Of a DNA stretch of 45,902 nucleotides, positions 6,441-27,020 are shown one piece after another (within the stretch, counting starts at the first letter, position 1; each line of letters opens with the position of its first letter). The notes under the pieces were generated by a model. That model did no database searches. It saw only the letters and a list, made by a program, of their open reading frames with translations, and was not told the origin of the DNA. Source of the stretch: an uncultured Clostridia bacterium (GTDB lineage Bacteria > Bacillota > Clostridia > TANB77 > CAG-465). The position numbers and the translations under genes were made by a program. The stretch lies in the NCBI GenBank assembly GCA_947632635.1, contig CANRQA010000006.1:1-45902 (forward strand), in the 5' to 3' direction.

Positions 6441-7469
6441 TTATTCTATTACCATATTTGAATTAAATTTCATATCATTTCCTATTTTTTTATCATTACT
6501 TGATGCATTTGCTCCCTCTTTTAATATATCCAATTTCTTTGTTACTACTTTATATTTCTTGCTTTCACTATCTAATTCAAAAACACTAATAGAGTTTTCT
6601 AAATTTGGCTCTAAATGTTTTAATTCAGTAGTAAAATACAGATCTTCATCTTTTAAGAAGGTACTTACTTTTTTTATTATTCTAAACATCTCTGCAATAT
6701 GTTTTATATCTTCTCCAACAAAGACAAGTTGAGGTACGTTATAAAAACCTGCATCATTTTTTGCAAAATTTTCGTAAAAGTCAGAATATAATTGTACTTT
6801 TTCTGCAAACATATTTTCCCAATCTTCATTTCTTCTAACTACTTCAAATACAAAATTTACTTCATCTGCGTCTTTTTTTAATGTTACCATTCCACCAGTT
6901 GGTTTAAATTTTACATTGTATTTTTTTGAATAAAGTAGTATGTTAGGGTCAGTAGATTTATATGCTTCTACTTTCTGCATATATGCTATTATAACCTGAT
7001 TACCTGCTAGTTTTCTTTTTACTGCATATGCTGGTTTTGTATTATCTGTTGGTTGCCATGTTGTAGGTATATTTCTTTGTTTTAATATATACGTAGCAAT
7101 TTTATCCATTGCATAAGCCCTATATGAACTCTTACCAGATTCACTTTGGAAATAATAACGTGCTATTACCTTTGATTTAGTTAAATCTTCTAGCCATTTT
7201 GCAACTTTATTCTGCTTTTTATCTTCTTCAATATCATCTAATTTACCTCTTAAGTCTAAAATTTGTGTAACTTGTCTTGATGTTACAAATCCAAATTCAT
7301 TAACAACTTCTAATGCCTTTATATGAGATTCATTTATATATCCCATATCCATTTTAAATACTACTTGGTTTATTGATGCAAATCCATCCTTTCCATCAAA
7401 AACCTTTACTTCATTTTCCCTTACAGCAAATGGGGAAACAACTGTTTTTACTTCTTTATCATTTACCAC
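6441..7469 (-). CDS. Replication-relaxation (Replic_Relax)-like winged-helix protein
   Basis: A soluble 342-residue protein. Residues about 45-135 form a winged-helix region (HIKALEVVNEFGFVTSRQV, then KWLEDLTKSKVIARYY). The second half has ADEVNFVFEVVRRNEDW followed by EKVQLYSDFYENF, which resembles the restriction-endonuclease-like half of Replic_Relax proteins; those are found on plasmids and conjugative elements. The C-terminal 60 residues are not recognisable. The start is GTG 7469, with GGAG 8 bases upstream. The gene has its own promoter (7569-7597) and a leader of about 90 nt containing a 10-bp inverted repeat. It is separated from the upstream S1-domain gene by a terminator. Proximity to the secretion cluster suggests it handles DNA or regulates that cluster. 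The family call is moderate and is not backed by a search. Confidence 0.55.
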   Translation of the reverse strand: MVNDKEVKTVVSPFAVRENEVKVFDGKDGFASINQVVFKMDMGYINESHIKALEVVNEFGFVTSRQVTQILDLRGKLDDIEEDKKQNKVAKWLEDLTKSKVIARYYFQSESGKSSYRAYAMDKIATYILKQRNIPTTWQPTDNTKPAYAVKRKLAGNQVIIAYMQKVEAYKSTDPNILLYSKKYNVKFKPTGGMVTLKKDADEVNFVFEVVRRNEDWENMFAEKVQLYSDFYENFAKNDAGFYNVPQLVFVGEDIKHIAEMFRIIKKVSTFLKDEDLYFTTELKHLEPNLENSISVFELDSESKKYKVVTKKLDILKEGANASSNDKKIGNDMKFNSNMVIE

Positions 7470-7513
7470 TTAAAACACTCCTTAAATTTTAATTTTGAAA
7501 TTTAACATTCAAT

Positions 7514-7537
7514 TATCTAAATATAACTATTTAGATA
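7514..7537. repeat. 10-bp perfect inverted repeat in the leader of the Replic_Relax-like gene
   Basis: TATCTAAATA (7514-7523), a four-base loop TAAC, then TATTTAGATA (7528-7537). It lies between the promoter and the start codon. It could be an operator for a dimeric winged-helix protein or an RNA hairpin. It has no T tract, so it is not a terminator. Confidence 0.7.
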
Positions 7538-7568
7538 TAATACAAGGAAAATTTCTTCCTATAATTTA

Positions 7569-7597
7569 ATTATACACCACATTTTTATTCTATGCAA
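7569..7597 (-). promoter_or_regulatory. Sigma-A promoter of the Replic_Relax-like gene
   Basis: TTGCAT (7592-7597), 17 bp, TATAAT (7569-7574) on the minus strand. Confidence 0.7.
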
Positions 7598-7607
7598 TAG
7601 AAAAATA

Positions 7608-7637
7608 GAAAAAAAGTAGTAACAAAAAAGTTACTAC
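7608..7637 (-). terminator. Terminator after the S1-domain gene
   Basis: GTAGTAAC (7616-7623) pairs with GTTACTAC (7630-7637); on the minus strand a run of T follows immediately. It closes the long secretion transcript just past the S1 gene stop. Confidence 0.85.
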
Positions 7638-7643
7638 CCAAAT

Positions 7644-8438
7644 TTATCCAATAATTACAAGTTTTATTTTCTTTTTTTCAATGTTTATTTTCTTTATACT
7701 TACAAGTACTTTTTGACCATATTCTATTCCGTTTACATGTTCAGCAAGTCCTACTAAATTTGGCTTTAATTCAACAAAGACACCAGATTTTATTCTATTT
7801 CTAATTATTCCCTCTACTATGTCGCCTTCTTTTATTTTTTTTACATTTTCTTCAAATGTTCCAAGCAATTCTTTATATGATAATTCAATTCTTCCTGTGT
7901 CTCTATCATATTTTTTTACTACTACTTCTATTCTTTGACCAATTCTAAACATATCTTTTGAGTGCTGAAGTGGCATATCTGACATATCTTGAAGTTTTAA
8001 TATTCCTGTAACTCCACCACCTACATCTACAAAAGCTGCATACTCTGTTGTACTTACTACAACACCTCTTAATTTCATTCCTGCTTGAAGATGCATATAC
8101 ATCCAACGTCTAACTTTAAGTTCAAGAATTTTTTTAGACATTATTAGCTCTATATTATCTGCATTTTTAATAATATCTTTTATACATACTTGTATTACTT
8201 TTCCTTTTTTGTTTTCAATATGTTTTTTATCTACAAGTCCATCTTCTGAAGCTATACTTGATGCTTCTTCTCTTGGTACCATTGCTTTTATATTACTTCC
8301 TACTTTTCCTACCATATTTAAACTATCATCAATATCTTCAACATACATGTCTAAAACTTGCTCTTCTTTTTTTATTTTTTCTAATTCTTCTAGAGTATAT
8401 ACTCTATTTTTTTTGCTACTTTTTCGTGTGTTTTCCAT
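7644..8438 (-). CDS. S1 RNA-binding domain protein
   Basis: A soluble 264-residue protein. Two S1 (OB-fold) domains are clear: residues about 118-190 (GMKLRGVVVSTTEYAAFVDV, GILKLQDMSD, then RIGQRIEVVVKKYDRDTGRIELSYK) and about 202-264 (EGDIVEGIIRNRIKSGVFVEL, ending IEKKKIKLVI). An earlier segment with VGSNIKAMVPREEASS looks like a degenerate S1 unit. The N-terminal 40 residues are charged. S1 domains bind RNA, as in ribosomal protein S1, but three short units differ from housekeeping S1. It starts 12 bp after the upstream bitopic protein gene (Shine-Dalgarno AAGGAG), and a terminator follows its stop. It thus appears to be the last gene of the secretion operon, an unusual partner for such machinery. 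The role is unknown. Confidence 0.75.
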   Translation of the reverse strand: MENTRKSSKKNRVYTLEELEKIKKEEQVLDMYVEDIDDSLNMVGKVGSNIKAMVPREEASSIASEDGLVDKKHIENKKGKVIQVCIKDIIKNADNIELIMSKKILELKVRRWMYMHLQAGMKLRGVVVSTTEYAAFVDVGGGVTGILKLQDMSDMPLQHSKDMFRIGQRIEVVVKKYDRDTGRIELSYKELLGTFEENVKKIKEGDIVEGIIRNRIKSGVFVELKPNLVGLAEHVNGIEYGQKVLVSIKKINIEKKKIKLVIIG

Positions 8439-8450
8439 ACAAAACTCCTT

Positions 8451-9272
8451 TTAATTATTAATATTTTCTACACTTAATATTTTAAATTTATTTTTGCCAA
8501 ATAACGAATTTATTTTAAAAGTTACTTTCTTTTTTTGACAACTTCTACCTTCTCCTGTTTTTTCTACATTGTCAAAATTTCCAGTTATAATATTACTGTC
8601 ATTATTTTTTGCTTCTATTAACGTAGGTAAGAAACTTGTATCAACTACATTATCTTTAAAATGGTAAAGTTCCATAGTATATATATCATTTGACTTAGAC
8701 ATTTTTTCTACACCTATAAAATTACAAGAGGCTTCCATATTAGTTTGTGTTGATGAAATATAGCAGGTATCATCAGATTCATTATAATATAATGAATTTG
8801 TGTACTTTTCAGATTCAGCCAATTCTTCTTTACTAGCTTTTATTCCAAATACTTCATCTAGCAATTTAATTAGTTTTAAAGATTTTATAGTATATTCATA
8901 TTCATAATTTTTTCCCTTGTTAATATATACTGGCTCTTTAAGTTTTTTCAACTCATTATTATATTGCAATGCAATAAAAAATTGATTCATAAGATTTGTA
9001 TATTTATTTATATCTTCTACTGTAATTTTATCTGTTTCTTTTGGTATTTCATCTATATCAAGCAAGTTAGCAAAGTAATCAGATTCCAAAAATGATTTTC
9101 TAATATTATCAGTTAGTAATATATCTCCATCTGATGCATTATTTAATTCAAGAGTACACATAAACATTTTATCTGTAAATATAGCTATACATACAAATAC
9201 TACTGCACTAATTAATATTATTAAAATTAAAAAAATTACAATCTTTTTAAATATATTGTTATTGGAGCCCAT
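8451..9272 (-). CDS. Bitopic membrane protein of unknown function, secretion cluster
   Basis: A 273-residue protein with one N-terminal membrane anchor (residues about 8-34) and an extracytoplasmic domain of about 235 residues. I do not recognise the domain. It contains four or five cysteines, for example DDTCYISS, MEASCNF and GRSCQKKK, so disulfides or metal binding are possible. ATG 9272 is chosen because GGAGGT lies five bases upstream; the ATG at 9284 overlaps that site. It is close before the S1-domain gene (12 bp) and is separated from the big hydrolase gene by 106 bp containing a long palindrome. Its size and layout resemble the other single-anchor proteins of this cluster (13373-14842, 16474-17397, 17423-18007), which suggests an envelope-spanning scaffold or adaptor. 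Confidence 0.6.
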   Translation of the reverse strand: MGSNNNIFKKIVIFLILIILISAVVFVCIAIFTDKMFMCTLELNNASDGDILLTDNIRKSFLESDYFANLLDIDEIPKETDKITVEDINKYTNLMNQFFIALQYNNELKKLKEPVYINKGKNYEYEYTIKSLKLIKLLDEVFGIKASKEELAESEKYTNSLYYNESDDTCYISSTQTNMEASCNFIGVEKMSKSNDIYTMELYHFKDNVVDTSFLPTLIEAKNNDSNIITGNFDNVEKTGEGRSCQKKKVTFKINSLFGKNKFKILSVENINN

Positions 9273-9311
9273 TTTTACCTCCATTTATACCTTTTATATT
9301 TTATTATCTTA

Positions 9312-9350: not shown

Positions 9351-9378
9351 TTTAATACAAGCTCTTTTAGTTTAGTAA

Positions 9379-9657
9379 TTAATTATCGCTAAGGATAGTT
9401 ATAATATAATTAATATTTCTAAAATTCTCTACTTTAGCCAAATCTTTTATCTTTATCCATCCATAAGTTTTTATTGGATATTTCGCTCTATTTTCATTTT
9501 TTATAGCATCTTTTCCTGTTTCTTTTTCATGTTCTTCATATGGATTTCCAAGATATACTTCACACTCATCTTCACTATCAGCATTTCTTATATCAAGCAA
9601 AGTCATAATATGCCCTACATCTGTATAAGGTGTTCCACCGCACCTCACTAATAACAC
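9379..9657 (-). pseudogene. Out-of-frame C-terminal end of the large wall hydrolase (C39-like peptidase tail)
   Basis: This frame encodes VRCGGTPYTDVGHIMTLLDI followed by CEVYLGNPYEEH. That is the second half of a C39-like cysteine peptidase, with the catalytic His in VGH and the Asp or Asn in GNP. The first half, with the catalytic Cys, is the end of the preceding frame (SSGCGPTSLSI near 9890). The two halves overlap around 9593-9657 in different frames and would join by a +1 shift near 9645-9665. It has no ribosome site of its own. I read it as the severed tail of the upstream gene, not a separate gene. Confidence 0.8.
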
Positions 9658-12600
9658 AAGGTCGTTTTGCTTTCAAATTCTCTTTTATAATTTCAATATA
9701 ATCCTCATCATTGTCTTTATTTTCTTCATAATATACCTTACATTTTAATTTTAATTTTTCAGTTATAGTTTCACTTAATGTTATATAACTAGTAATATTT
9801 CCTTTGTTATTTTTTATATAATCTGCTATCGTTTTTGGCGTTTCATTTTTTCCATAACCACTAGCAATTATTGAAAGTGAAGTAGGCCCACAACCTGATG
9901 ATTTTATAGTTCCTCCCCAATATGGTGAATTTGACCAAGGCTCTTTGTTTTGTTGATATAATATATATGTTCTTCCATCAGAAGAGTTTAATGTACCTGC
10001 TGTCCCCTCAAAGATATTTTCAGCATTTTGTTCTTCTTGTGTATAACTTCCGGCTGCGTCTTGATTATAATATCTTAACACATGTTTTAAATAATCAGGA
10101 TCGCCACCACCAACATCACCAAAAACAGTATACCCAGTTGTTTTATACCACTCAAGAGATTGCATCCAGCCATTATCACCAGAATATACATAATCCATAT
10201 ATTCCTCATCGGTTACTCCAAAATATATTTCGCCTTTAGAATCATTTCTTGTGCCTCCATTTGTAATGTAATGAGTTATTGTCCTTTTTATTCCACCTGT
10301 TCCTAAATTATATGCTTGTAAAGCTACTAAAATATTACCCTCAAAGTCACTAATTCTATTTTTTAACTCAGCACATCCAACTTGTATCTGCAAATCAGGA
10401 TTTGAAGCTAACTCATCATTAGTAAATTCTAAAGTTTCAGTTTGATCATCAACATAATTTGCTACAACAGATGTTCCATTCTTTTTCTCCCATTGCATAA
10501 GACCTATAGCAGCACCATTTGCATTCGGGTTTCCACTACTTTCTTGTGCAATCATTGCAATTACTAAATATGGATCTAAACCAAATCTATCTGTCCATTT
10601 TAAAACAGTGTCAAAATACTTCATGGCATTTTTATATGAATCACTATCAAGAGATGTTCCAATCTCTATTCCTGTACCTGTTAAATCTCCAAAATTAGTA
10701 TTAGTTGAACCATTTAAACTATTATATGAAGATGCTTTCAAATCATTTATGCCAGTATATGTTTTATATCCAAGACTAGCTCCCCAAAAAAACGGTAAAG
10801 TTCCAGATGAAAAATAATCCTTAAATAATGTTTTCAATTCATCATATGAAAGTGTTAAAAATGATCTACTAAATCCTACATGGTTTGCATATTTTTCTTC
10901 TTTTTTCATATAAGTTAGATAATTAGCTGGCTTTGAATTCATTATATCTATTCTATTTATTTTACTTCCAGATTCAATTAAAAATCTATAATAATTTTCA
11001 TCTTCATAAGTAAACTCATTTATATCATTCTTTTTTTCTTGATCTTCAACATCTTTAATTGTTATCTTAGTATTACCTTTTATATCATCATATAGCATAT
11101 CTAATTTATGTAAGTTATATGTTTCTACAATATTAAATACTGTATTTTTATATGTTTCCTTTGAACTTTCAGTATTTTCTAAATATTCAGCTCCAAGTTC
11201 TGTAAGTACACTTTTTATTCTTTCTTTATAATCTTCTTCTACACCAGATGTTATTTCAGTTGATGCGATTTCTCTTGCATTTTCAAATGCTATAGAAGAA
11301 GTATCGGTTGCAAGTTTATTTGCATAAGCCTCTATTTGAACAATAGTACCTGTTGTTTCTATACTTGGATATGTACCAGAATATCCTGCAATTGTTTTCT
11401 GGTTAAATAGGCTTTTGTTTCTATCCATTGTTAAAGATTTAGCTTTTGGGTTATCTAATTTTTCTTTAGCAGCAGCTATATTTGTAAATCCTCCTTCTTG
11501 TACAGCTTGAGCAACTAAAACGGAAGGTAATATTTTACCATTAGTCTGTATAGAAGCAGCTATAGCATAAGGAAATAACCATCTAAGATTTTCTAAATTT
11601 GAATCACCTGTAGGTATCACATCAAGAATTTTTGAATTTAAATCATCTTTTTCTATATTTGATAAACTAACATCTCCATATACATTATTATACTCTTTTA
11701 CATCGGAATAAGTATAATCTGTTATACTTGTATCTCCAGTTTGTTCAAGAGTGTCTTCCCATGTTCTTGTAGCATATTTATAATTACCAATATTAACTTT
11801 ATATCTTACATATCTTATGCCACCATCAATAAAATCTTCTTGACCATATTGATCTGAATTAACAGCTTCACCTACTGCAATACTTGTTCCTGTAAATCCT
11901 TGTGTGTTTTCCCTCCTATTTTCTACATCATTATCATTATATTGTATATAGTTAAACACATTTGATATTCTTACATCAAACATATTTGCCTCTTTAATAT
12001 AATATTCAGGCGTTACAGTTACATTTTTACTTACATATTCTTCAAGCATAGGATTAACATTTCCACTTGAATCAAGTCTAGTATTTACATGCTCTCTATT
12101 AGTCTCCGTATAATCTTGTATAAGTTTATAATTTGGATATTTTCTCTCTTTATCCCATGTATCATAATATATACTGTATTTTTTTTCGTATGTTACTACG
12201 TCATATTCTTTATATCTTGTTTTTAACTCACATTTTGATATATCATATCTGTTTACTGTTATATCTGACATAGCATCTTTTAAGACACTATAAGCAAAAT
12301 TTGCACTTTTGGAATTTTTTTCATTATTGCTATTTGCCATAAGTCCTGAATGCATAGCTAGTGGTACTAACCAATTTTGTAAATATGGAAAAGTAAAGTC
12401 TATAAAACTATTTAAATTTGTATTACTCTGATCTTGCGGATATGTAAGCCCTAAATTCACATCAGCCGTCATCTCACAAGGAGAACCCGCATAACCATGA
12501 CCATATTTTTCCCACTTAATTTCGTTAAAATTGTATTTTTCAGTTAATAATATATGCTTATATAGTGGTAATTTATCGTCAGGACTAACTACCCTATTTG

Positions 12601-13348
12601 TAGTTGTACCTTGACCACCACTTACACTACCTACTCCATCTATCCAATTACTATTTATTCCGCCTTGTCCATTAAATATAGTTGTCGCATTAGCCGGATC
12701 TATAGATGCGGCTGCTTCAGGTGTAATTCTACCTACAGATTCAAATCCCTTACTGTACTCTGACAATTTTTCTCTTCTTAAGCCATAACCTAAATCGCCA
12801 CCGTATGATGGACCTGGACCATGACCTGTACAATGAATAACTTCATCGTTTCCAACATATAACAAAACGTGGCAAGAACATGACATTAACAAATCTCCGG
12901 GGCGTAAAATATTTCTTAACGTTTCAAGTGGAATTTTTCTTCTAGAAGCAATCGCTCCATATATCTGAGTAAAACCATCAAAATAATTTCCGCGTTGTCC
13001 TGCATATTTCGTACCAACCCCATCTGGTTGCGCATAAAATCTAAATCCATGGCTTAATACTCCCCTTTGTAATTTAGTGGATTGATATATTGCAAAACTT
13101 ACCCAACCAACGCAATCAAAATTATATTTATCATTAGAACCCTTTTTTCCATATGTTACGGCTAAACTCCTATTAGAAGTGCTATAATTGGTCTGATCGG
13201 CATAATTATCAAAAAAATTAATAGCAAATTGTGCGAAATACTGTCCAGCCTCTTCCTGCGTTAATGCCTGTACATTTTCATTTAATAATAAACAAACAGA
13301 AACAAATACAAAAGCAAATATTATTTTTAAAATATTTTTTAACTTCAT
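9593..13348 (-). CDS. Secreted multi-domain peptidoglycan hydrolase (NlpC/P60, glucosaminidase-like, SLT, C39-like), frameshifted near the C-terminus
   Basis: The product is 1251 residues as read, about 1320 if the frameshift is repaired. A signal peptide ends near VQA (27-29). Domain 1 (about 35-210) is NlpC/P60: YNFDCVGWVSFA with catalytic Cys79, and CHVLLYVG with His160. Around residue 613, KILPSVLVAQAVQEGG followed by LFNQKTIAGYSG resembles the FlgJ-type glucosaminidase fold. Near 936, VIAMIAQESSGNPNANG and IGLMQ are the catalytic Glu region of a lytic transglycosylase (SLT), completed by LVALQAYNLGTGG. Near 1153, SSGCGPTSLSIIAS starts a C39-like peptidase whose second half lies in another frame (9379-9657). 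It should cut both glycan strands and peptides to open the wall for the secretion apparatus, the job of VirB1-type proteins. The start has AGGAGG upstream; it is in the operon, 24 bp after its upstream neighbour. Confidence 0.85.
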   Translation of the reverse strand: MKLKNILKIIFAFVFVSVCLLLNENVQALTQEEAGQYFAQFAINFFDNYADQTNYSTSNRSLAVTYGKKGSNDKYNFDCVGWVSFAIYQSTKLQRGVLSHGFRFYAQPDGVGTKYAGQRGNYFDGFTQIYGAIASRRKIPLETLRNILRPGDLLMSCSCHVLLYVGNDEVIHCTGHGPGPSYGGDLGYGLRREKLSEYSKGFESVGRITPEAAASIDPANATTIFNGQGGINSNWIDGVGSVSGGQGTTTNRVVSPDDKLPLYKHILLTEKYNFNEIKWEKYGHGYAGSPCEMTADVNLGLTYPQDQSNTNLNSFIDFTFPYLQNWLVPLAMHSGLMANSNNEKNSKSANFAYSVLKDAMSDITVNRYDISKCELKTRYKEYDVVTYEKKYSIYYDTWDKERKYPNYKLIQDYTETNREHVNTRLDSSGNVNPMLEEYVSKNVTVTPEYYIKEANMFDVRISNVFNYIQYNDNDVENRRENTQGFTGTSIAVGEAVNSDQYGQEDFIDGGIRYVRYKVNIGNYKYATRTWEDTLEQTGDTSITDYTYSDVKEYNNVYGDVSLSNIEKDDLNSKILDVIPTGDSNLENLRWLFPYAIAASIQTNGKILPSVLVAQAVQEGGFTNIAAAKEKLDNPKAKSLTMDRNKSLFNQKTIAGYSGTYPSIETTGTIVQIEAYANKLATDTSSIAFENAREIASTEITSGVEEDYKERIKSVLTELGAEYLENTESSKETYKNTVFNIVETYNLHKLDMLYDDIKGNTKITIKDVEDQEKKNDINEFTYEDENYYRFLIESGSKINRIDIMNSKPANYLTYMKKEEKYANHVGFSRSFLTLSYDELKTLFKDYFSSGTLPFFWGASLGYKTYTGINDLKASSYNSLNGSTNTNFGDLTGTGIEIGTSLDSDSYKNAMKYFDTVLKWTDRFGLDPYLVIAMIAQESSGNPNANGAAIGLMQWEKKNGTSVVANYVDDQTETLEFTNDELASNPDLQIQVGCAELKNRISDFEGNILVALQAYNLGTGGIKRTITHYITNGGTRNDSKGEIYFGVTDEEYMDYVYSGDNGWMQSLEWYKTTGYTVFGDVGGGDPDYLKHVLRYYNQDAAGSYTQEEQNAENIFEGTAGTLNSSDGRTYILYQQNKEPWSNSPYWGGTIKSSGCGPTSLSIIASGYGKNETPKTIADYIKNNKGNITSYITLSETITEKLKLKCKVYYEENKDNDEDYIEIIKENLKAKRPCVISEVRWNTLYRCRAYYDFA

Positions 13349-16455: not shown

Positions 16456-16473
16456 ACCTAACACCCCCTTCTT

Positions 16474-17422: not shown

Positions 17423-18007
17423 TTAAAATATGTAGAAAATATTATATGAATTATTTTCTAATAATTGAATCCCAATATATGAAGTTGTGCCCTCTTTTGA
17501 GGTATTTAACTTGCAAATATACATATTAGAGTCATATGTATATTCATCCAATTTATATATCGTATTAATAATATCTTGATTTTTTACAAATATACTGTTA
17601 TTCTGGTAAACAACAAATTTTTCCATCATATCATGTGAAAGTTTCATATATTCAGATTTACTTACGTATTTTCTATATTTTGAAGATAATACTTTATAAT
17701 ATGACTTTCTAGTATATTTAGATGTACTTTTTTGATTTACAAGTCCTAACGAACTTATTTCGTTATTATATGAAGAAAGAAAAGAGTATATAATATCGTT
17801 TAAAATCCAGTACTCTTCTCTTGTTTTTGTTTCAGTTGAATAGTTTAATATTTCATCAATATTAAACTCTTTATAATTTATATTATTATCTTTTTTTCCT
17901 ATAGAGGCTATAATACTAGTTGCAATTGCAAGTAGTATTATACCTACTATACCTAAAGCTATTTTTTCATTTATTGTCATCTCTTTTATATCAATGATTT
18001 TTTTCAT
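17423..18007 (-). CDS. Small bitopic membrane protein, secretion cluster
   Basis: A 194-residue protein with one membrane helix (about 15-36) and a short extracytoplasmic domain. The domain starts with helices (WILNDIIYSFLSSY, YMKLSHDMMEKFVVY) and ends in strands (MYICKLNTS, SYIGIQLLEN). That order is compatible with a small NTF2-like fold, as in VirB8-type proteins, but similarity is not demonstrated. GGTGAT lies before the ATG, and the gap to the VirB6-like C-terminal gene is only 12 bp. I do not recognise a family. Confidence 0.5.
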   Translation of the reverse strand: MKKIIDIKEMTINEKIALGIVGIILLAIATSIIASIGKKDNNINYKEFNIDEILNYSTETKTREEYWILNDIIYSFLSSYNNEISSLGLVNQKSTSKYTRKSYYKVLSSKYRKYVSKSEYMKLSHDMMEKFVVYQNNSIFVKNQDIINTIYKLDEYTYDSNMYICKLNTSKEGTTSYIGIQLLENNSYNIFYIF

Positions 18008-19094: not shown

Positions 19095-20576
19095 CTACGT
19101 TAACGATTTACTTAAAAAATCTATAACTACAATTGCTGGTGCCATAATAGCAAGAACTACTATGTAAAAGAATCTTCGTATATACGAAAAGAAATATAAT
19201 ATAGATTGTGCTACAAATATTGCATATAGCAAAGCACCTTGTACTGTTAATTTACTACGATACCAACCTGTAACTTCCCCTGTATCATCATCTGTTGGTA
19301 TAACAAAAGCTGATTCTTTAAAATATTTTGCAAGAGAAGCCATCAGATCAGGAGATGTACTAGTTGCCTCTTTTCTATATATATCATTATATATCGTTGT
19401 CATAATGTTTACATACTGTTTATAATAACTAACATCAGTATGTTTTGAATCACCAAGCTCAAACTTGGAAATGTGATATAGAAAAAATTCATATCCATCT
19501 GTTTTTTGTAATTCATCATCAGATTTATTATTAAGTGAATCTATTAATTCTTTAATAGTAATAGTTTTTTTCTCTGTAGTTGTATTAACAAAAGTTCCAT
19601 CCTCATCTGTGCTAGTTATTTCTGTTACTCCATATTCAATTGATTGACCATTAATTAAATTAATGTCCACAGCTAATTCAATAATAGATTGCTTTCCATT
19701 TCCTGTAAAAGTCTCTTTAAACCAGTTCCTAACCTTCTGTGATGAATACTTAAATGCATCAAATAAAATAGAATCTCTATAACTTTCTGATGATATTAAT
19801 TTATTTGCAATTTCTTTGTTATTTTCAATTGTCTCTTTAGCATCTGCTGTTTCATTTCCTATATGTTCCTTATTAGTTTCTAAAAAAGTACTAATTGCAG
19901 TATCAGCATCAATAGATGTTGCTTCTTCAATTAATTTTATTGCAGCAGTATCTAAACTTTCTGACATAATATTACTTGCAATTTCTACCATTTTTTCATT
20001 TAAGAAAAATACAAATGACATTATATTATGCATTAAAAATAACATAACTATTGAAAATAACCATTTTGTTAAGGCCTCTTTGTATTTTGCCTTTTCACTT
20101 GCTAAACTACTTATTGCCATTTTAATTGCAGCTATTGCTACTACTATTCCCAAAAAAGCTACAGCAATTGATAATATTGTAAAATATGTATTTCTTACTA
20201 TTCTACCAAGTATGCCATCATTTTGAACATATAAAGAACCTCCATCAGCATTAAAGAAATTAACATCTAAAAGTGGAACTGCATTAAAAAGTATCCTATC
20301 AGCCCATGGAAAAGTGGCTGAACCAGTTAGGCTCTTAAAAGCCGTTCCCACAAGTTTTTCAACTAATGATGCAAGAGAGTAAACAAATGAAGCAAGCATA
20401 TCTATTACTGTACTTTCTTTTATTTTTTCATCTATTAAATCATCTGTACCTGCATCTTCATATCTTGACTGATAATTTTCGTTTATTGCTGCATTTACAT
20501 TACATGAAAATACTGGTAATACAACCAATACTAATAATATTATTGCTATTAACTTACTTCTTACATCATGTTTCAT
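19095..20576 (-). CDS. VirB6/TrbL-like channel protein, N-terminal half (split gene)
   Basis: A 493-residue protein with a signal peptide (about 1-30) and membrane helices at about 130-158 and 168-200. A long extracytoplasmic helical region (about 200-440) follows, then two helices ending in the VLAIMAPAIVVIDFLSKS motif at the C-terminus. In related TrbL/VirB6 proteins this 'MAPxxxxxD' motif continues directly into the rest of the chain, which here is the next gene, started by its own TTG. VirB6-type proteins form the inner-membrane platform through which substrate passes. The start has AAGGTG upstream. It follows the VirB4 gene by 39 bp. The assignment rests on topology, motif and order rather than on a search. 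Confidence 0.75.
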   Translation of the reverse strand: MKHDVRSKLIAIILLVLVVLPVFSCNVNAAINENYQSRYEDAGTDDLIDEKIKESTVIDMLASFVYSLASLVEKLVGTAFKSLTGSATFPWADRILFNAVPLLDVNFFNADGGSLYVQNDGILGRIVRNTYFTILSIAVAFLGIVVAIAAIKMAISSLASEKAKYKEALTKWLFSIVMLFLMHNIMSFVFFLNEKMVEIASNIMSESLDTAAIKLIEEATSIDADTAISTFLETNKEHIGNETADAKETIENNKEIANKLISSESYRDSILFDAFKYSSQKVRNWFKETFTGNGKQSIIELAVDINLINGQSIEYGVTEITSTDEDGTFVNTTTEKKTITIKELIDSLNNKSDDELQKTDGYEFFLYHISKFELGDSKHTDVSYYKQYVNIMTTIYNDIYRKEATSTSPDLMASLAKYFKESAFVIPTDDDTGEVTGWYRSKLTVQGALLYAIFVAQSILYFFSYIRRFFYIVVLAIMAPAIVVIDFLSKSLT

Positions 20577-20615: not shown

Positions 20616-22646
20616 TTAAATAGAATTTTCTCTATTTGTTCTTTTGTTTCTCATTTCAATCATCTTCGATAAGTTAGTTTCAACAAATTCAAATTCTCTT
20701 TGAGTAGGTCTAATTGCGATAACTGCTGATGAATATCCTATTTTTATAAGGCCCTCACCACGTGTACAAGTAATTAAGAAATTAGCCTCTCCATCACTTA
20801 GTTTAAATACCTCTTGTAAGTATTCTATTTCAGATTTATCTTGTGCTAAGAATAGTTTAGTTTCAGCAGATGTTAAAACTGCTTGAACAGATTTATTTTC
20901 ATAGAAATCTTGGAACTTCTGTGATACAACTGTAAGTGAAACATTTCTTTTTCTTGCACGTCTTGCCATTGTATTTAAGAAGTCAACAGCCTCAGGATAC
21001 GCAAGTAACATCCATGCCTCATCAACTAATACCCTTTTATTTCTTGCTCTTGATTTATCTTCACTATTTTTCTTAACATATTTTTCCCAAATCCAAGAAA
21101 GCAATATTTGCTGAGCTAGTGGTCTTGCGAATCTTTCTTCTAGTTGAGATATGTTTATATTTATAAATAATGAGCCATCTTGTAATTCAAATGTAGATTG
21201 TCCATCAAAATATGCCATTTGTCCATCATATTTTCTAACATATTGTTTCATTACTTTTACTAAATAATCATAATGGAATTTATATGTTTCATTATCATTT
21301 TTCTTTGCTTTTTCAACAAGTCTATCATACCAAGATCCAATTGTGGGCATAAGTTTCTTTTTTTTAGTAACAGAAAAATCTCTTGTTTGCTCTTCGTTTT
21401 CAAAATCTCCAAAAGAATCTTCATATAATGAGTTAGGATCACTTGTGATACCTGCTGCAGCATATTCTTCAGCTGCTATTTCTGCAATTATTTGTTTTGT
21501 AAGCTCGTTAACTTCTTCTGACTTTGTTGCACCTCTAGCCATTGTTAGCAATGCTTGTGTTACGTCCTCAACTTTATTTTCTACATTTAGCACATATACA
21601 TCTCTTCCTGTAATTTCATCCTTTTCAATTTCTGTTTCTATATCAAATATATTTATTATTGTGTTAGAGTTTGGAGAAATATTAACATTTATACCTCTTA
21701 AAGCTTCAGCAACAACAACATATTCTCCTTCTGCATCAAGCACTAGATTTTCTACTCCCATAAGTATTGCTGAACGTGCCATTATTGTTTTAATTGTAAC
21801 AGATTTACCAGCACCAGACTTACCAAATATTATCATGTTATAATTAGTCATAGAATTATTAAAATTATCAAATATTACTGGAAGTCCAGTTTGTTTATTA
21901 ATGCCTATTGGTACCCCTGTGTTATGTCCAGCATCTGCATTAACAAATGGGAAAACAGTGGCCATTGAACCTCTATCAAAAGTATGTCTTCTTGAAATTG
22001 TATTTGTATTAAGAGGTAAATTAGATTTAAATCCTTCCTCTTGCAAAGCCCATGCAGTTTTTAACCCAAGTAAGTTCTTAGATGCTTCCATTGCAAGTAA
22101 TTCTGACATTTTATCAAGTTCGCTCTTGTTATATGCAAATAGTGTACAAATAATAGTTGCATCAAATAACTTGTTATATCCAGCAGCAATTTGATCTCTT
22201 AAACTTTCTGCTTCAGCTTGTTTTGTAGCAAGGACTGATTCTCTGTTTATATCTCCTCTATCATGAGCTACATATCTTTCTGATTGTAATTCAACAATTT
22301 GTTTATTTAATTCATTTTGTGACTTTGTTTCAGATATTGGTGTTATATATACTGATGTATTTACATCACCAAATTCATATATACCTGACAAGAAATATGG
22401 AAAAGTAGCTTGTCTTGGTATAGTTGTCAAATAAAAAGTTCTTGCAAATCTTGAAACTTTTGAAAAAATCTCTAAATAATCGTAATGAGTTGCATCAATT
22501 CCGGACGGAGCTAATAAATCTTTTAAAGTAGATTTATTAAGTTGCAATGAACTTTCAAGAAGCTCATCTGATTTTACAATTTCTTCTTGAACAATTTCTT
22601 GCTCATTTCCTTTTTTCTTATTTTTCTTTTCTTTTCCCTTACCCAT
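20616..22646 (-). CDS. virB4: VirB4/TraC-type secretion ATPase
   Basis: A soluble 676-residue ATPase that powers assembly and transport in type IV secretion. The N-terminal domain has LLAPSGIDATHYDYLEI and RTFYLTTIPRQATFPYF, as in Gram-positive VirB4/TraE proteins. Walker A FGKSGAGKSVTIK is near residue 277, followed by NLVLDAEGEY. Walker B is RVLVDEAWMLL near 541, then ARRARKRNVSLTVVSQKFQDF. GEGLIKIGYSSA is the typical C-terminal strand. All catalytic motifs look intact. It is the most diagnostic gene of the cluster and lies between the TraC-N-like gene (22 bp) and the VirB6-like gene (39 bp). No VirD4 coupling ATPase is present in the window. The N-terminus is a Lys/Glu-rich tail. Confidence 0.93.
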   Translation of the reverse strand: MGKGKEKKNKKKGNEQEIVQEEIVKSDELLESSLQLNKSTLKDLLAPSGIDATHYDYLEIFSKVSRFARTFYLTTIPRQATFPYFLSGIYEFGDVNTSVYITPISETKSQNELNKQIVELQSERYVAHDRGDINRESVLATKQAEAESLRDQIAAGYNKLFDATIICTLFAYNKSELDKMSELLAMEASKNLLGLKTAWALQEEGFKSNLPLNTNTISRRHTFDRGSMATVFPFVNADAGHNTGVPIGINKQTGLPVIFDNFNNSMTNYNMIIFGKSGAGKSVTIKTIMARSAILMGVENLVLDAEGEYVVVAEALRGINVNISPNSNTIINIFDIETEIEKDEITGRDVYVLNVENKVEDVTQALLTMARGATKSEEVNELTKQIIAEIAAEEYAAAGITSDPNSLYEDSFGDFENEEQTRDFSVTKKKKLMPTIGSWYDRLVEKAKKNDNETYKFHYDYLVKVMKQYVRKYDGQMAYFDGQSTFELQDGSLFININISQLEERFARPLAQQILLSWIWEKYVKKNSEDKSRARNKRVLVDEAWMLLAYPEAVDFLNTMARRARKRNVSLTVVSQKFQDFYENKSVQAVLTSAETKLFLAQDKSEIEYLQEVFKLSDGEANFLITCTRGEGLIKIGYSSAVIAIRPTQREFEFVETNLSKMIEMRNKRTNRENSI

Positions 22647-22668
22647 CTATATCATACCCCTTATATTT

Positions 22669-24123
22669 TTATATAATTAAGTCATCATCGTCAGATGAAT
22701 TATTATTATTTTTTTCATTTTTGTTGTTATCTTCAGGTTTCAAGTTAGTATCAGAAACTAAACTATCATCAGCATTTGAAAATCCCATTCTGTCATCTAA
22801 AATACTTTCATCTTGTATTTGTTGTTTCTTAGGTTCTTCTTTTACTTTATCTTCAGGTTCATTGTTATTATTTATATTATTTTGATTTTGGTTATTTATA
22901 TCATCTTTAATATTACTATCACTTTTTTGTGTATTGCTTCTAATAGAAGCCATATCCTCTAATACCTTATTTTTATCATTTACAAAATCCTCTACTAAAA
23001 TCTCTTTTGCCTTTTGTTTTATTTCATTTGGTATAGGTTCTTTCTTTACTATTTCAGCAGCAGCCTTACTAGTTCTTTCCATTACATCTAATTTTTCTGC
23101 TTCAGGTGATATATAAGAGCCTTCATCTATTGCTTTCTTTATTGCGTCCATTGCTTTTATTTCTGCAACTTCTTGTATTTCTTTTTGTAGTTTTTCTTGT
23201 TTTTTCAAGAAAACATCTTCAGATGTTGAATATAATCTATAAAAGCCTGATTCAACAGCTTCTCTTATACTTACTAAGCCTTTATCATCTCTGTTATATG
23301 CAGTATATAACAAATCAGCAAGTTCATTAGAATCTAATACTACTCCAGTAACTGAGCAACTTGAAAGTCCACTAATTATTGATTGTGCTCTTGTTAATAA
23401 TTCGTTATAACATATATTTATAGTTTCCTCTTTTGAAAAGCTATCAGTTGCTGTGATCTCAGAAGAATAATATGATACAAGTACATAAAAATTTCTTTGT
23501 AAAAGATTTTTATTTAAGCTTAGTTTTTCAACATAGTTAATGATATCTGACGCATATTCATAAACGTTAAGTATTCTATTTCTGTGTTCCTCCACTCTTT
23601 GAATATCTTCTTTTTTTGCATCAAATTGTTCTAATAGATCATTGTACTCTTTATTTACTTCTTCATACTCTTCTTTTATACTACTTGCATTTTCTTTATA
23701 TGTATTTATTGCTCCTTTTAAATCTATGTTTTGTGCTTGAACATATAACTGAATTGGAAATCTAAGTGTATTTAGAAATGTTATAAAGCCTTCTTCAACA
23801 GCAAGCTGCTCCATATCTGACATCAAATCATAATTTATTCCTTTACATTTAATTGCCATAGTAAATTTTGTACCTTTGTTCTGTATAATCATGTTATCTT
23901 GTATTTTATCAAATTCCATAAATTTAAATATATCTTCTTTAGGAATATTTTCATTTGATGCCTTGGAATTACCATTCTTTTCTCCACTTGTAGAAGTATT
24001 ACTACTTGCTTTTTTTTTGCTTTCTTTTCCTTTTTGTTTATTAATAATTATTAAAAATACTGCGCCAAATATTAAAATTACACCTAATAAAATCATTGGT
24101 AAAATAAGTTGACTCATATCCAT
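22669..24123 (-). CDS. Membrane-anchored TraC N-terminal-like protein of the secretion system
   Basis: A 484-residue protein with one N-terminal membrane helix (about 6-27) and a Lys/Ser-rich linker. The domain starting FMEFDKIQDNMIIQNKG and including EEGFITFLNTLRFPIQLYVQ resembles the N-terminal domain of TraC/VirB4 ATPases ('I...G.......EV.GIN..L.s..EQ...'), but no ATPase domain follows. Next come long coiled coils (about 150-205 and 300-345) and a disordered tail very rich in Asn, Asp and Glu. A stand-alone TraC-N protein next to a full VirB4 suggests an adaptor that docks VirB4 to the membrane. It starts 3 bp after the PrgI gene, which indicates coupling. Confidence 0.65.
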   Translation of the reverse strand: MDMSQLILPMILLGVILIFGAVFLIIINKQKGKESKKKASSNTSTSGEKNGNSKASNENIPKEDIFKFMEFDKIQDNMIIQNKGTKFTMAIKCKGINYDLMSDMEQLAVEEGFITFLNTLRFPIQLYVQAQNIDLKGAINTYKENASSIKEEYEEVNKEYNDLLEQFDAKKEDIQRVEEHRNRILNVYEYASDIINYVEKLSLNKNLLQRNFYVLVSYYSSEITATDSFSKEETINICYNELLTRAQSIISGLSSCSVTGVVLDSNELADLLYTAYNRDDKGLVSIREAVESGFYRLYSTSEDVFLKKQEKLQKEIQEVAEIKAMDAIKKAIDEGSYISPEAEKLDVMERTSKAAAEIVKKEPIPNEIKQKAKEILVEDFVNDKNKVLEDMASIRSNTQKSDSNIKDDINNQNQNNINNNNEPEDKVKEEPKKQQIQDESILDDRMGFSNADDSLVSDTNLKPEDNNKNEKNNNNSSDDDDLII

Positions 24124-24126
24124 TTT

Positions 24127-24477
24127 CTATTTTCCTCCTCTGTTCAAATTATACATATAAATTTTCTTTTTTCTCTTGAAAGTTAAAAATCTAAACGCTA
24201 TATCTGTTAAATTTTCTCCACCAGCTTTTCTAAATTTTCCCATAATAGGTATATCTGGTATCTTAACAGTTCCAAATAAATATCCAATTACGCCAAAAAT
24301 TACAGTTATTATTATTCCGGGAACTAACCCCATACCAAATAAATTACTTCCTAAATACCAAATTCCTGCCCCTATTAGTCCTATAGCTACTGTAGTTACA
24401 AAAGATTTGATAGAAAAAATGTATAACAATCTAGTTTCTCCTTTTACACTACGTGGAACATAATATGTTTTTCCCAT
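24127..24477 (-). CDS. PrgI family (VirB3-like) membrane protein
   Basis: A 116-residue protein matching the PrgI family, the Gram-positive counterpart of VirB3. It opens with YYVPRSVKGETRLLYIFSIK, has two adjacent membrane helices (about 22-42 and 48-68), and ends in a cytosolic basic tail (FRKAGGENLTDIAFRFLTFK). PrgI sits beside VirB4 in most such clusters and recruits it to the membrane. ATG 24477 is chosen because GAGGTG lies 3-8 bases upstream. Length is typical. The downstream gene begins 3 bp after its stop. Confidence 0.88.
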   Translation of the reverse strand: MGKTYYVPRSVKGETRLLYIFSIKSFVTTVAIGLIGAGIWYLGSNLFGMGLVPGIIITVIFGVIGYLFGTVKIPDIPIMGKFRKAGGENLTDIAFRFLTFKRKKKIYMYNLNRGGK

Positions 24478-24496
24478 AATCACACCTCTTATATTA

Positions 24497-25330
24497 TTAT
24501 TTTAATAAATCATTTATTACAATTGAAATATAATTTAATAATCCTACTGCACAAAAAGATAATATAATTCCAATTAAGAATTGTCCTGATTTTGCTTTTA
24601 AATCTGCTTTTCCTTCTGCTCCTGCAAATATATATCTTATTCCTACGTAAAGTATAGCTCCAATAGCAAGGAAGTTAGCAATAGTTGTCGCGGTAGAAAA
24701 TATTATTGAAAGTGGAGTTGTATAACTTGTTGCATCACTTGGATTAAATATAAAATCACCATTTGGAAATAATAGATTCCATATTGAGTTCCAACCAAAG
24801 AAAAATACACATGCAACAAGTAAAGTAACTAAGCTTTCTTTTACATCTGCTTTTGCTTCAAATGTTCCAAACATATATTTAATTCCAAGAAATATAGTAA
24901 CTAATACTATTACTGTCGTTCCTAAAATATTAACCATTGTTCCAAATTCTGATATTATTTCTGCTGCTGAAGCATCTACTGCTCCAATAGTGCCATAATC
25001 GTCCTTCCCACGATTAAACCAATTAACAGCTTGCTTCCAAAAGTTACCACTATTATTTATTTTAAGGTAATCTTTAGCAATAGGCATTTCAAAATCAGTA
25101 TATTTTATATTTGCAAACTCATCATCACTTTCAAAGTCTTGAGAAAGCTCTACCTGATCACCTTTTTTAAAATGGTGAGTCCCATGACTTGAAATAACAT
25201 CACAATCTTGGCTAATTTCTAAAATATCTCCTGCTTTATATAAAACCTCAGCATAAGCATAATTACATATAGACAGAAAAATTGAAAAAGCAAATAAAAT
25301 ATTAAATGCAACTATAAGCCTTTTTTTCAT
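24497..25330 (-). CDS. Double-domain VirB2/TrbC-like pilin protein with extracytoplasmic N-domain
   Basis: A 277-residue protein. Its signal peptide ends around AYA (about 25-27). Residues 28-95 form a beta-rich domain (VLYKAGDILEISQD, KKGDQVELSQDFESDDEF) that is clearly related to the N-domain of the neighbouring 198-residue pilin. Two pilin-like helix pairs follow. Each is a hydrophobic helix, the loop motif GIKYMFGTFEAKADVK or GIRYIFAGAEGKADLK, then a second hydrophobic helix. The same loop motif defines the three smaller pilins upstream. VirB2/TrbC pilins have this two-helix hairpin with a short charged loop; two in tandem is unusual. It has its own promoter (25357-25385) embedded in the preceding terminator and is followed by PrgI after 19 bp. 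Confidence 0.75.
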   Translation of the reverse strand: MKKRLIVAFNILFAFSIFLSICNYAYAEVLYKAGDILEISQDCDVISSHGTHHFKKGDQVELSQDFESDDEFANIKYTDFEMPIAKDYLKINNSGNFWKQAVNWFNRGKDDYGTIGAVDASAAEIISEFGTMVNILGTTVIVLVTIFLGIKYMFGTFEAKADVKESLVTLLVACVFFFGWNSIWNLLFPNGDFIFNPSDATSYTTPLSIIFSTATTIANFLAIGAILYVGIRYIFAGAEGKADLKAKSGQFLIGIILSFCAVGLLNYISIVINDLLK

Positions 25331-25356
25331 TATCTCACCTCATATACGTCTATATA

Positions 25357-25385
25357 ATTATATCAATTTTATAAAAAAAAGTCTA
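25357..25385 (-). promoter_or_regulatory. Promoter of the double pilin gene, overlapping a terminator
   Basis: TAGACT (25380-25385), 17 bp, TATAAT (25357-25362) on the minus strand. The -35 box lies within the 3' arm of the preceding terminator hairpin. Confidence 0.6.
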
Positions 25386-25417
25386 TGCTTTTTGTAAAAA
25401 AAACACAGACTTTTTTT
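25372..25417 (-). terminator. Internal terminator between pilin genes 3 and 4
   Basis: On the minus strand, an A-run plus AGTCTGTG (5' arm within 25403-25417) pairs with CATAGACT plus a T-run (3' arm about 25373-25387), with one mismatch and a U/A-rich loop. T residues continue after the stem. Confidence 0.75.
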
Positions 25418-25466
25418 ATATTAAATACAAATGTTATAAAATTGAAACATTAATGAAATATTATGT

Positions 25467-26063
25467 TTAAACATTGGTAATTTGAGTAAATAAAGTAACT
25501 AAAAATTGTATAACTATTGTAGATGCAAATACTAAAACCATACCTATTACAAGAGGGACTAAACTCTTCTTTATATCTGCTTTTTGATCCGCTGACGTAT
25601 ACAAATATCTAACTCCTGCAAATATAATTCCAGCAAAAGCAGCTATTCTTATCAGTGATAAAATTGTGTTCCAAATTCTTTGTACCGGACTAAGTATCTG
25701 GCCTGGTATTTTCTCACCACTTGGTATATTACTATAATCAAAGCCGTTACCCAGATTATCATCAGGTTCTGTTTTAGGTGCTATGGCTACATTCAAATCA
25801 AGATCACTAACTGCAATATTTGCCTCACTTCCATCATACATAAAATATGCCCAAAGATCTCCGACGTATAAATCTTGTGATAACTCAATTTTGTCCCCCG
25901 ATTTTAGCTCAATAGATTTAGTACTAGTAATATTAACGGTTGTAGTTGCTCTTACAGTTAATTTTGTACCAACCGAGTATAATACTTCTTCTGCAAAGCA
26001 TAAAGAAAAAGAACACATAAATACACATATAGTAGCTATTACACAAACAATTTTCTTTTTCAA
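25467..26063 (-). CDS. VirB2/TrbC-like pilin with extracytoplasmic N-domain
   Basis: A 198-residue protein with a signal peptide ending at CFA (about 22). The beta-rich N-domain (VLYSVGTKLTVRATTT, LKSGDKIELSQDLYVGDLWA) parallels residue by residue the N-domain of the double pilin at 24497-25330. A linker follows, then two hydrophobic helices around GVRYLYTSADQKADIKKSL, the pilin loop motif of this cluster. TTG 26063 is chosen as start because GAGGTG lies 6 bases upstream; the in-frame GTG at 26072 overlaps that site. It has its own promoter built into a terminator (26079-26108) and is followed by another terminator, so its transcription is partly separate. Confidence 0.75.
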   Translation of the reverse strand: MKKKIVCVIATICVFMCSFSLCFAEEVLYSVGTKLTVRATTTVNITSTKSIELKSGDKIELSQDLYVGDLWAYFMYDGSEANIAVSDLDLNVAIAPKTEPDDNLGNGFDYSNIPSGEKIPGQILSPVQRIWNTILSLIRIAAFAGIIFAGVRYLYTSADQKADIKKSLVPLVIGMVLVFASTIVIQFLVTLFTQITNV

Positions 26064-26078
26064 TAATATCACCTCAAA

Positions 26079-26108
26079 ATTTTACACTATTTTATGTTAA
26101 AAAGTCAA
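26079..26108 (-). promoter_or_regulatory. Promoter of pilin gene 3, overlapping a terminator
   Basis: TTGACT (26103-26108), 18 bp, TAAAAT (26079-26084) on the minus strand; the -35 box is inside the 3' arm of the hairpin 26099-26130. Confidence 0.6.
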
Positions 26109-26130
26109 TGTTAAATAACATTGACTTTTT
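26099..26130 (-). terminator. Internal terminator between pilin genes 2 and 3
   Basis: A perfect 15-bp stem: 26099-26113 pairs with 26116-26130 around AA. The stem ends are A and T runs, so it could act on either strand. Confidence 0.8.
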
Positions 26131-26160
26131 AATAAATAATCAACAATAAATATTTTCAAT

Positions 26161-26541
26161 TTAAATTTTTAATATTTGCTCTGCCAATTTATGTACTATT
26201 TTAACAAGTGGTCCAGCCGCAAATATAAGTATTATTCCTAATATAATAAATATTAAGCTACCTTTTATATCACTTTTCTTATCAGCTGAAGCAAACATAT
26301 ATCTTAGCCCAACAAATATAATGCCAATGAAAGCTAATACTTGCACTACTACTGTAATTGTGCCCCAAACTCTATCCACAGTGTCATCAATACCAGATAT
26401 AGCTGACGCATTAGGATCACCACTTACCCATGGCTGTAAAGGCTCAACATCTGTACCAGTTGCAAAAATATATGTATTAAAACAAAATAACAGCAACAAC
26501 AGTATAAAAGATATACATATAAATCTTGTATAGTTATTCAT
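26161..26541 (-). CDS. VirB2/TrbC-like pilin
   Basis: A 126-residue protein with a signal peptide-like N-terminus (hydrophobic about 8-27, ending IFA). A short acidic/Pro linker (VEPLQPWVSGDPNAS) follows, then two hydrophobic helices around GLRYMFASADKKSDIKGSL. This is the standard VirB2 layout and size. ATG 26541 is chosen because TTGGAG lies a few bases upstream. It starts 39 bp after the first pilin gene without a terminator between them, so the two are probably made together. A perfect hairpin follows its stop. Confidence 0.8.
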   Translation of the reverse strand: MNNYTRFICISFILLLLLFCFNTYIFATGTDVEPLQPWVSGDPNASAISGIDDTVDRVWGTITVVVQVLAFIGIIFVGLRYMFASADKKSDIKGSLIFIILGIILIFAAGPLVKIVHKLAEQILKI

Positions 26542-26580
26542 AAAAAACTCCAATATATCTACATAGTATTTTAATAAACA

Positions 26581-26958
26581 TTATACAATTCCTGTAGTAG
26601 CTTGGTCAAATAAGCCCATTATCACTTGTACTAAAGTACTTGCTCCAAATACAAATATTGCACCTACTACAAGTATAACTGTTTGTTTCTTTATATCAGC
26701 TTTTTGGTCAGCTGAAGCAAACATATATCTTATACCTGCAAATATAATAGCTATAAAGGCAATAACTTGAGCAACAACAGTTACAGTTGTCCATATATTT
26801 TGTGCTAAATCAGTAATACCTGCTATTTCACTACCACCTGTTGGATAATCAGTATCTACGCCACCAGTAGCAAATAAACCATTGCCACTAGTAAAAACAA
26901 CTAAAAGTAGTATAACTACTGGTATCATTCTTAAAATAAATTTCTTTGAATTTTTCAT
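26581..26958 (-). CDS. VirB2/TrbC-like pilin, first gene of the cluster
   Basis: A 125-residue protein. Hydrophobic signal sequence (about 8-30, ending LFA), then a linker (GGVDTDYPTGGSEIAG), then two hydrophobic helices around GIRYMFASADQKADIKKQT. The motif is nearly the same as in the other three pilin genes, so these are paralogues. A strong AAGGAGG precedes the ATG and a good promoter lies at 26993-27020. As the first gene it may be the most expressed, as expected for a major pilin. VirB2-type proteins polymerise into the extracellular pilus or surface fibres of the apparatus. Confidence 0.82.
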   Translation of the reverse strand: MKNSKKFILRMIPVVILLLVVFTSGNGLFATGGVDTDYPTGGSEIAGITDLAQNIWTTVTVVAQVIAFIAIIFAGIRYMFASADQKADIKKQTVILVVGAIFVFGASTLVQVIMGLFDQATTGIV

Positions 26959-26992
26959 AAAATTTCCTCCTTAAAGTACAAATCATATTTTT

Positions 26993-27020
26993 ATTATATC
27001 AATTTATAAAAAAATTGCAA
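26993..27020 (-). promoter_or_regulatory. Main promoter of the secretion cluster
   Basis: TTGCAA (27015-27020), 16-bp spacer, TATAAT (26993-26998) on the minus strand, about 35 bp before the first pilin ATG. Confidence 0.7.

Follow-up and report, generated by a model that had tools for sequence, protein, structure and literature searches.

What role does a type IV secretion system (T4SS) play on the chromosome of an uncultured Clostridia bacterium, when the usual companions of conjugation are not in view? The window analysed here is the complete contig C6, 45,902 nucleotides long, of a metagenome-assembled genome (MAG; 1.59 Mb in 98 contigs, assembly completeness 93%), and it contains a T4SS cluster of 17 genes, all on the minus strand, the first starting at 26958 and the last ending at 6441. 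An earlier sequence-only reading of the window had listed PrgI, VirB4, a split VirB6, a TraC-N-like protein, four pilin genes and two wall hydrolases running in one direction, and the present analysis confirms them. The same reading had reported neither a coupling protein nor a relaxase, and had left open whether the cluster is a domesticated apparatus or what remains of an integrative and conjugative element (ICE). We propose, with moderate confidence, that it derives from a conjugation machine of plasmid type, belonging to a Bacillota lineage not recognised so far, which the ancestor of this order (TANB77) took permanently into its chromosome and passed on as a host trait. The case for domestication lies in its distribution, its fixed sites, its intact ATPases and the components it has in common with plasmids.

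Of 191 genomes sampled from the order, 141 carry a VirB4 orthologue of at least 60% identity (range 60-97%); genome G113 adds a 32% relative as the 142nd match. A class-wide sample gives VirB4 in 15 of its 18 members of the order versus 0 of 373 other Clostridia, with one 33% relative outside, and the coupling protein VirD4 in 17 of 18 versus two distant matches among the 373. All matches in a scan of named genomes were MAGs of uncultured Clostridia and Clostridiales, a large share of them from the guts of animals. The Walker A and B key residues of VirB4 are invariant across 18 orthologues and its reading frame is uninterrupted in nearly all orthologues, some MAG copies carrying stops, while gene order is kept in about 100 loci. 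VirB4 and VirD4 lie at unlinked loci, and their distance matrices correlate (Mantel r 0.87 overall, 0.63 for the family and 0.43 for the genus; p <= 0.0003). Together with the S1-domain and Replic_Relax proteins encoded at the end of the cluster, they are jointly absent from 4 of 57 relatives. Fisher p-values for co-occurrence (VirB4 with Replic_Relax 1.9e-4, VirD4 with Replic_Relax 1.4e-3, VirB4 with VirD4 0.07) are indicative, since the genomes are related and the MAGs incomplete. Order-wide occurrence in essentially single copy, at fixed sites, with intact ATPases and inheritance congruent with an unlinked gene, gives good support to a domesticated apparatus, one of the suggestions of the sequence-only reading; its other suggestion, ICE remains, is not supported in the sense of decay, against which that reading had itself raised the conserved gene set with intact ATPase motifs. 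Separately, in a genome of another family (G122, contig C39) a VirB4 97% identical to that of the window accompanies the genome's own 66% one, through either bin contamination or recent transfer; locus L093 appears to be the same contig.

Within families the cluster occupies a fixed chromosomal site, the window's own site being the exception. Most members of family f1 have NMNAT, pgi, an SSB-fold gene and an M23 peptidase, in whole or in part, upstream of the pilins, and several members of f3 have mnmE-mnmG-rsmG-parA-parB-DUF4446 there, a neighbourhood of oriC type. In most genomes these flanks were identified by gene length; in G016, G053 and L137, sequence and Pfam matches were used. Other f3 members carry two adjacent M16 peptidases on the upstream side of the pilin genes, as seen in L137 and, judging by gene length, in many further genomes of f3. 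For the window's site, an empty-site test found the downstream flank pair MscL-ABC-F without a T4SS in G018 and G007; in neither are the window's upstream flank genes beside the pair, and the insertion is not datable from them.

The coupling protein is present in the same genome. A genome search located a VirD4-like ATPase of 817 aa on contig C59, adjoining pth-rplU-rpmA. VirD4 occurs in 177 of the 191 genomes (161 of 175 of good quality), nearly always as a single copy. All 24 proteins checked have the Walker A sequence GATGTGKT and the Walker B sequence YIDEF. In G028, from the sister genus g2, a single contig reads pilins-PrgI-TraCN-VirB4-VirB6-bitopic-hydrolase-S1-RR-VirD4, where RR denotes the Replic_Relax protein. 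The S1-RR pair adjoins VirD4 or sits a few kb away in G032, G039, G043, G047, G051 and G056, and on a short contig of G049 RR alone is near VirD4. Because it is contiguous with the cluster in G028 and near S1-RR in the other genomes, VirD4 belongs to the T4SS; in the window's genus it is unlinked to the cluster. Two further candidates in the window's genome were set aside as not belonging to this system: a VirD4 on C18 (G000:C18, L061), whose open reading frame (ORF) a stop interrupts, and a VirB4 with four stops on G000:C49. Both look like debris of a conventional ICE.

A second, distant T4SS with a 32% VirB4 was also observed, in L196 and L202 (G041:C24) and in L197 (G113:C23). Next to it in G041 come a VirD4 split over three ORFs, a protein with an S1 domain and one with DUF5697, so that here too a VirD4 is tied to an S1 protein plus another small partner.

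Is there, then, a relaxase? The gene at 6441-7469, the last of the cluster and directly preceded by the S1-domain gene (7644-8438), encodes RR, which has virD4 as a neighbour in other families. All 14 RR proteins compared (the window's and 13 homologues) match PF13814, at best with 1.1e-6; the window's own scores 22.3 bits, below the cut-off of 25.3. PF13814 denotes the domain carried by those MOB_C relaxases that CONJscan recognises (PMC5357655); MOB_C relaxases are related to PD-(D/E)XK nucleases (PMC12857230). The MOB_C-typed protein of pAM373 matches it at a similar level (5.2e-6), and RR resembles the TraX type of pAM373 and pAD1 further in its winged helix and VirD4-like neighbour. In TraX-type relaxases D152, E170 and E172 are invariant, whereas counterparts of these residues are not recognisable in RR: a look-alike motif has invariant G193 and E209 with V or I at 211, and the C-terminal halves are not reliably alignable. 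When the profile of RR was compared directly with that of TraX-type relaxases, no significant match emerged, and the link therefore rests on the common Pfam family. An AlphaFold model of RR from three sequences had a predicted local distance difference test score (pLDDT) of 34 and was discarded. By these comparisons RR is probably not an ordinary active relaxase, and would be a diverged, possibly inactive DNA-binding member of the relaxase family. Relaxases of the MOBP (PF03432), MOBQ (PF03389) and MOBT (PF02486) types were not found in the 93%-complete assembly; the search for MOBV (PF01076) had no working positive control. With VirD4 on C59 and a relaxase-superfamily protein inside the cluster, any inference from the lack of both fails. 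The sequence-only reading had named, as what would refute it, a relaxase and VirD4 gene elsewhere on the same element or recognisable ICE ends; of these, a VirD4 elsewhere exists, and no ICE ends were found.

The nearest known relatives are on plasmids. In a set of 72,556 plasmids, RR homologues (profile-profile probability 98%) occur on plasmids of Thermoanaerobacterium, Aneurinibacillus and Paenibacillus, and in every case an S1-domain gene immediately precedes the homologue. These plasmids also rank among the best VirB4 matches (31-33% identity), and the best VirD4 match is the Thermoanaerobacterium plasmid. On Thermoanaerobacterium pMU3262 (NC_017998) and Paenibacillus polymyxa pSC2 (NC_014628), a pilin, PrgI, TraC-N, VirB4, a VirB6-like protein and a wall hydrolase follow the window's order, the related plasmids carrying PF18895 pilins; the S1-RR pair is held in common, as is a related VirD4 on pMU3262. 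The plasmid genes differ in being scattered over distant loci at 24-33% identity, whereas the order's system is chromosomal, order-wide and has S1-RR at the end of the VirB cluster. A single T4SS lineage, domesticated in the order, would be the simplest account of both. The S1-RR plasmids are typed as having no relaxase and count as non-mobilizable for MOB-suite, which nevertheless assigns a mating-pair apparatus to three of these four plasmids. As an observation in its own right, the S1-RR pair on large Bacillota plasmids (L207, L209, L210, L211) is a candidate for an unrecognised transfer module. The conjugative plasmid pGIAK1 has Replic_Relax and VirD4 (PMC3756968) and was not included in the 72,556-plasmid collection.

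The cluster in the window is laid out as follows, from its upstream neighbour to its terminator.

27078-28637, minus strand: GT-C (PMT-like) glycosyltransferase, probable accessory (PF13231, 2.1e-3)
26993-27020, minus strand: main promoter candidate, TTGCAA-16-TATAAT, extended -10 (TG)
26581-26958, minus strand: VirB2/TrbC-type pilin 1 (PF04956, 1.1e-11, 45.3 bits, above cut-off)
26161-26553, minus strand: VirB2/TrbC-type pilin 2 (PF04956, 1.2e-8)
25467-26072, minus strand: VirB2/TrbC-type pilin 3 with an N-terminal domain (PF04956, 3.6e-6, and PF18895, 8e-6, both slightly under cut-off)
24497-25330, minus strand: pilin-like protein 4 (PF04956, 5.9e-7 over two pilin-like stretches)
24127-24483, minus strand: PrgI/VirB3-like protein (PF12666, 1.6e-3, below cut-off; its place ahead of TraC-N and VirB4 is kept in about 100 loci)
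22669-24123, minus strand: TraC-N/TrsD-like protein, the VirB4 N-terminal domain as its own protein (N-terminal part of NF045975 VirB4, 1.5e-5)
20616-22646, minus strand: VirB4 ATPase (NF045971, CD1110 family, 6e-62, below equivalog cut-off; solved relative 4ag5, 1.2e-29)
19095-20576, minus strand: VirB6-like part 1 (NF045848 conjugal transfer membrane protein, 7.5e-6)
18020-19075, minus strand: VirB6-like part 2, the C-terminal part as a separate ORF (profile matches the VirB6-like protein of two plasmids)
17423-18007, minus strand: bitopic protein of 194 aa, conserved within the family
16474-17397, minus strand: bitopic protein, candidate VirB8, with a transmembrane segment, an NTF2-like and an Ig-like domain (AlphaFold pLDDT 81.6)
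14872-16464, minus strand: CHAP-domain wall hydrolase (PF05257, 1.4e-10)
13373-14842, minus strand: variable gene with a signal-anchor N-terminus, clear orthologue limited to the closest relatives
9593-13348, minus strand: SLT transglycosylase with C39-like peptidase, VirB1-type (PF01464, 1.2e-14; PF13529, 6.7e-6), its C-terminal end in another frame
8451-9284, minus strand: variable gene, 277 aa, no homologue among relatives
7644-8438, minus strand: S1-domain nucleic-acid-binding protein (PF00575, 1.3e-16), paired with the Replic_Relax gene in the order and on plasmids
6441-7469, minus strand: Replic_Relax (MOB_C superfamily) protein RR (PF13814), winged helix and divergent C-terminal domain
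6401-6438, minus strand: strong terminator-like hairpin closing the cluster, 17 pairs and a T run

These limits (26958 to 6441) are biologically right, because the same block recurs as a unit in relatives in synteny comparison. The main promoter candidate at 27020-26993, rated good, lies 35 bp upstream of the first pilin; promoter-like matches as a whole do not outnumber those in shuffled sequence. The four pilins score 27.5-45.3 bits against a PF04956 cut-off of 27.9, three of them above it. The TraC-N/TrsD-like profile matches the equivalent gene on two plasmids at 4e-38 and 1.5e-24. In several relatives the two VirB6-like parts are replaced by a single fused protein of about 840 aa. In family f5 the VirB6-like gene was seen to be multiplied into tandem giant copies of about 770-1866 aa (composites G039 L046+L045 and G043 L043+L044), which recall the extended VirB6 arrays of Rickettsiales. 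The assignment of 16474-17397 as a candidate VirB8 is a weak one from its structural model: the C-terminal domain aligns to YjhA (Z 9.7), residues 81-186 align weakly with the N-terminal region of PBP2a (Z 7.1), and no VirB8 chain is among the matches listed. The C39-like domain of the SLT hydrolase shifts frame near 9640 (window 9379-9760), its remainder lying in ORF 9379-9657, through either an assembly error or a real frameshift.

Within the family, identity to the window is 75-90% for VirB4 and 70-89% for RR, and falls to about 25-56% for the pilins, 27-48% for VirB6 and 25-39% for the hydrolases. The outer parts of the machine diverge quickly and the inner parts barely, which fits recognition of varied partners or escape from phages or immunity. 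This pattern does not discriminate DNA from protein cargo.

Around the cluster, the scanned genes on either side are ordinary chromosomal genes, no integrase was found among the scanned window proteins and no att-like repeats flank the cluster, in agreement with the sequence-only reading; the tRNA-Arg at 719-795 was rejected as an att site for want of a supporting repeat. That reading had also called the flanking genes unrelated, which stands for the downstream side and not for the upstream side, as homologues of the glycosyltransferase at 27078-28637 lie beside or within the cluster in 13 other loci. Surface parts of the machine may be its modification target. Further from the cluster, we observed a two-module non-ribosomal peptide synthetase with a terminal reductase (peptide aldehyde/pyrazinone type) at 30463-37884, directly upstream of a seven-transmembrane histidine kinase and the glycosyltransferase, and, at 882-2996, a small RyR-domain protein adjoining a 602-aa membrane protein.

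Compared with known systems, the cluster agrees with MPF_FATA in its core: its VirB4 is of FATA type with intact ATPase motifs, PrgI/VirB3 and a TrsD-like protein adjoin VirB4 in the order PrgI/TrsC-TrsD-VirB4 of the CD1110/Tn1549 and pGO1/pWCFS103 types, and a VirB1-type hydrolase and VirD4 are present. Those systems differ in being mobile with a MOBP or MOBQ relaxase, and VirB4 is only 23% identical to that of pWCFS103. MPF_FATA in monoderms outside Patescibacteria has been described as lacking a VirB2 pilin (PMC12102498, PMC12857230), whereas four TrbC-type pilins are encoded here. Of the traits of a conjugative element, the system has VirD4 and shows neither a sporadic distribution nor a variable site, the window's site excepted. 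The Patescibacteria T4SS, itself derived from MPF_FATA (PMC12102498), is the closest parallel in organisation and the nearest in function: it too is chromosomal, with variable VirB2 pilin arrays, a type IV coupling protein (T4CP) far from virB4, a TrsD-like protein beside VirB4 and, in some lineages, a place near oriC. In the order, by contrast, the hosts are Clostridia, and the conserved parts include a MOB_C-family protein as well as a VirB1-type hydrolase of large size. The Patescibacteria T4CP is dispensable for epibiotic growth, whereas VirD4 is here the most widely retained part.

We propose a model in which the domesticated set comprises the VirB2-type pilins, PrgI, the TrsD-like protein, VirB4, VirB6, the wall hydrolases, VirD4 and the S1-Replic_Relax pair. 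Pilins and secreted proteins would make contact, the CHAP and SLT hydrolases would open the wall, and VirB4, held by PrgI and VirB6, would power assembly and transport, roles suggested by homology. The S1-RR pair would bind nucleic acid in the cytoplasm and deliver it to VirD4, encoded elsewhere in this genome, which would receive the substrate. Because of this presumed hand-over, we lean slightly, and tentatively, toward DNA or nucleoprotein passed to neighbouring cells as the cargo; a free protein effector is somewhat less probable. The machine would be a transfer system serving its host rather than a selfish element. Several points weigh against this proposal. About one quarter of the genomes have VirD4 without VirB4, and the order-level co-occurrence of the two is not strong; trees indicate that some VirB clusters were swapped between genera; the window's cluster lies beside MscL-ABC-F and not at the family's usual site. 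Conjugation by plasmids of the related lineage is itself putative, and the D...E-x-E active-site residues of MOB_C, not recognisable in RR, weaken the case for classical DNA transfer.

That this motif is not recognisable would fit a machine that instead serves protein delivery or intimate contact with another cell, a role proposed for the Patescibacteria T4SS. RR would then be a non-catalytic adaptor or regulator, and the pilins and hydrolases, which evolve fast, would be fitted to partners. This reading is plausible, if less so than our proposal: the Patescibacteria T4SS has no relaxase near virB4, and the conserved cytosolic VirB4 and RR beside diverged pilins, VirB6 and hydrolases are compatible with it. 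Against it, no effector family was identified, and proteins of nucleic-acid-binding type (S1 and winged-helix), with VirD4 as neighbour, are among the best-conserved parts. The presence of VirD4 also bears on T4SS-derived DNA uptake of the competence type, as in Helicobacter ComB or archaeal Ced. A weak match of VirB4 to CedD, chromosomal fixation and the SSB-fold gene just upstream in f1 speak for uptake; ComB-type systems are not known to use a VirD4, whereas VirD4 is the part most widely kept here, and we consider uptake improbable.

A still mobile ICE or integrated plasmid, with RR as the relaxase and the coupling protein merely overlooked, would account for the MOB_C superfamily membership of RR, the complete VirB/VirD4 gene set, the window's unusual site and the exchange between genera. 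We think it quite improbable, given no integrase among the scanned window proteins, no att repeats, a VirD4 unlinked beside pth-rplU-rpmA, one chromosomal site across genera and orthologues confined to one order. That the cluster is a functionless, decaying remnant is very improbable indeed: the frameshift near 9640 and the stops in some MAG copies stand against a VirB4 that is open in nearly all orthologues with invariant motifs, 60-97% identity across the order and the gene order kept in about 100 loci.

We return, then, to the proposal of a conjugation machine turned host trait. T4SSs of monoderms are known almost only from mobile elements, and according to a recent review only one group of monoderms, the Patescibacteria, departs from this by having VirB2 pilins and a role other than conjugation (PMC12857230). 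No description of the present system was found in the open-licence papers searched. Here a second monoderm order carries such a T4SS as a clade-defining chromosomal trait, and VirB2-type pilins are found also in the related plasmid systems. It is tempting to speculate, doubtful as we consider it, that the whole order passes chromosomal DNA or nucleoprotein between cells through the domesticated machine, using a new kind of substrate module made up of S1, Replic_Relax and a VirD4 that is often unlinked; the same module would serve, so far overlooked, for transfer in a group of large Bacillota plasmids now counted as non-mobilizable. For such plasmids, which have a T4SS and no known relaxase, the S1-Replic_Relax pair is a testable candidate for how they transfer.

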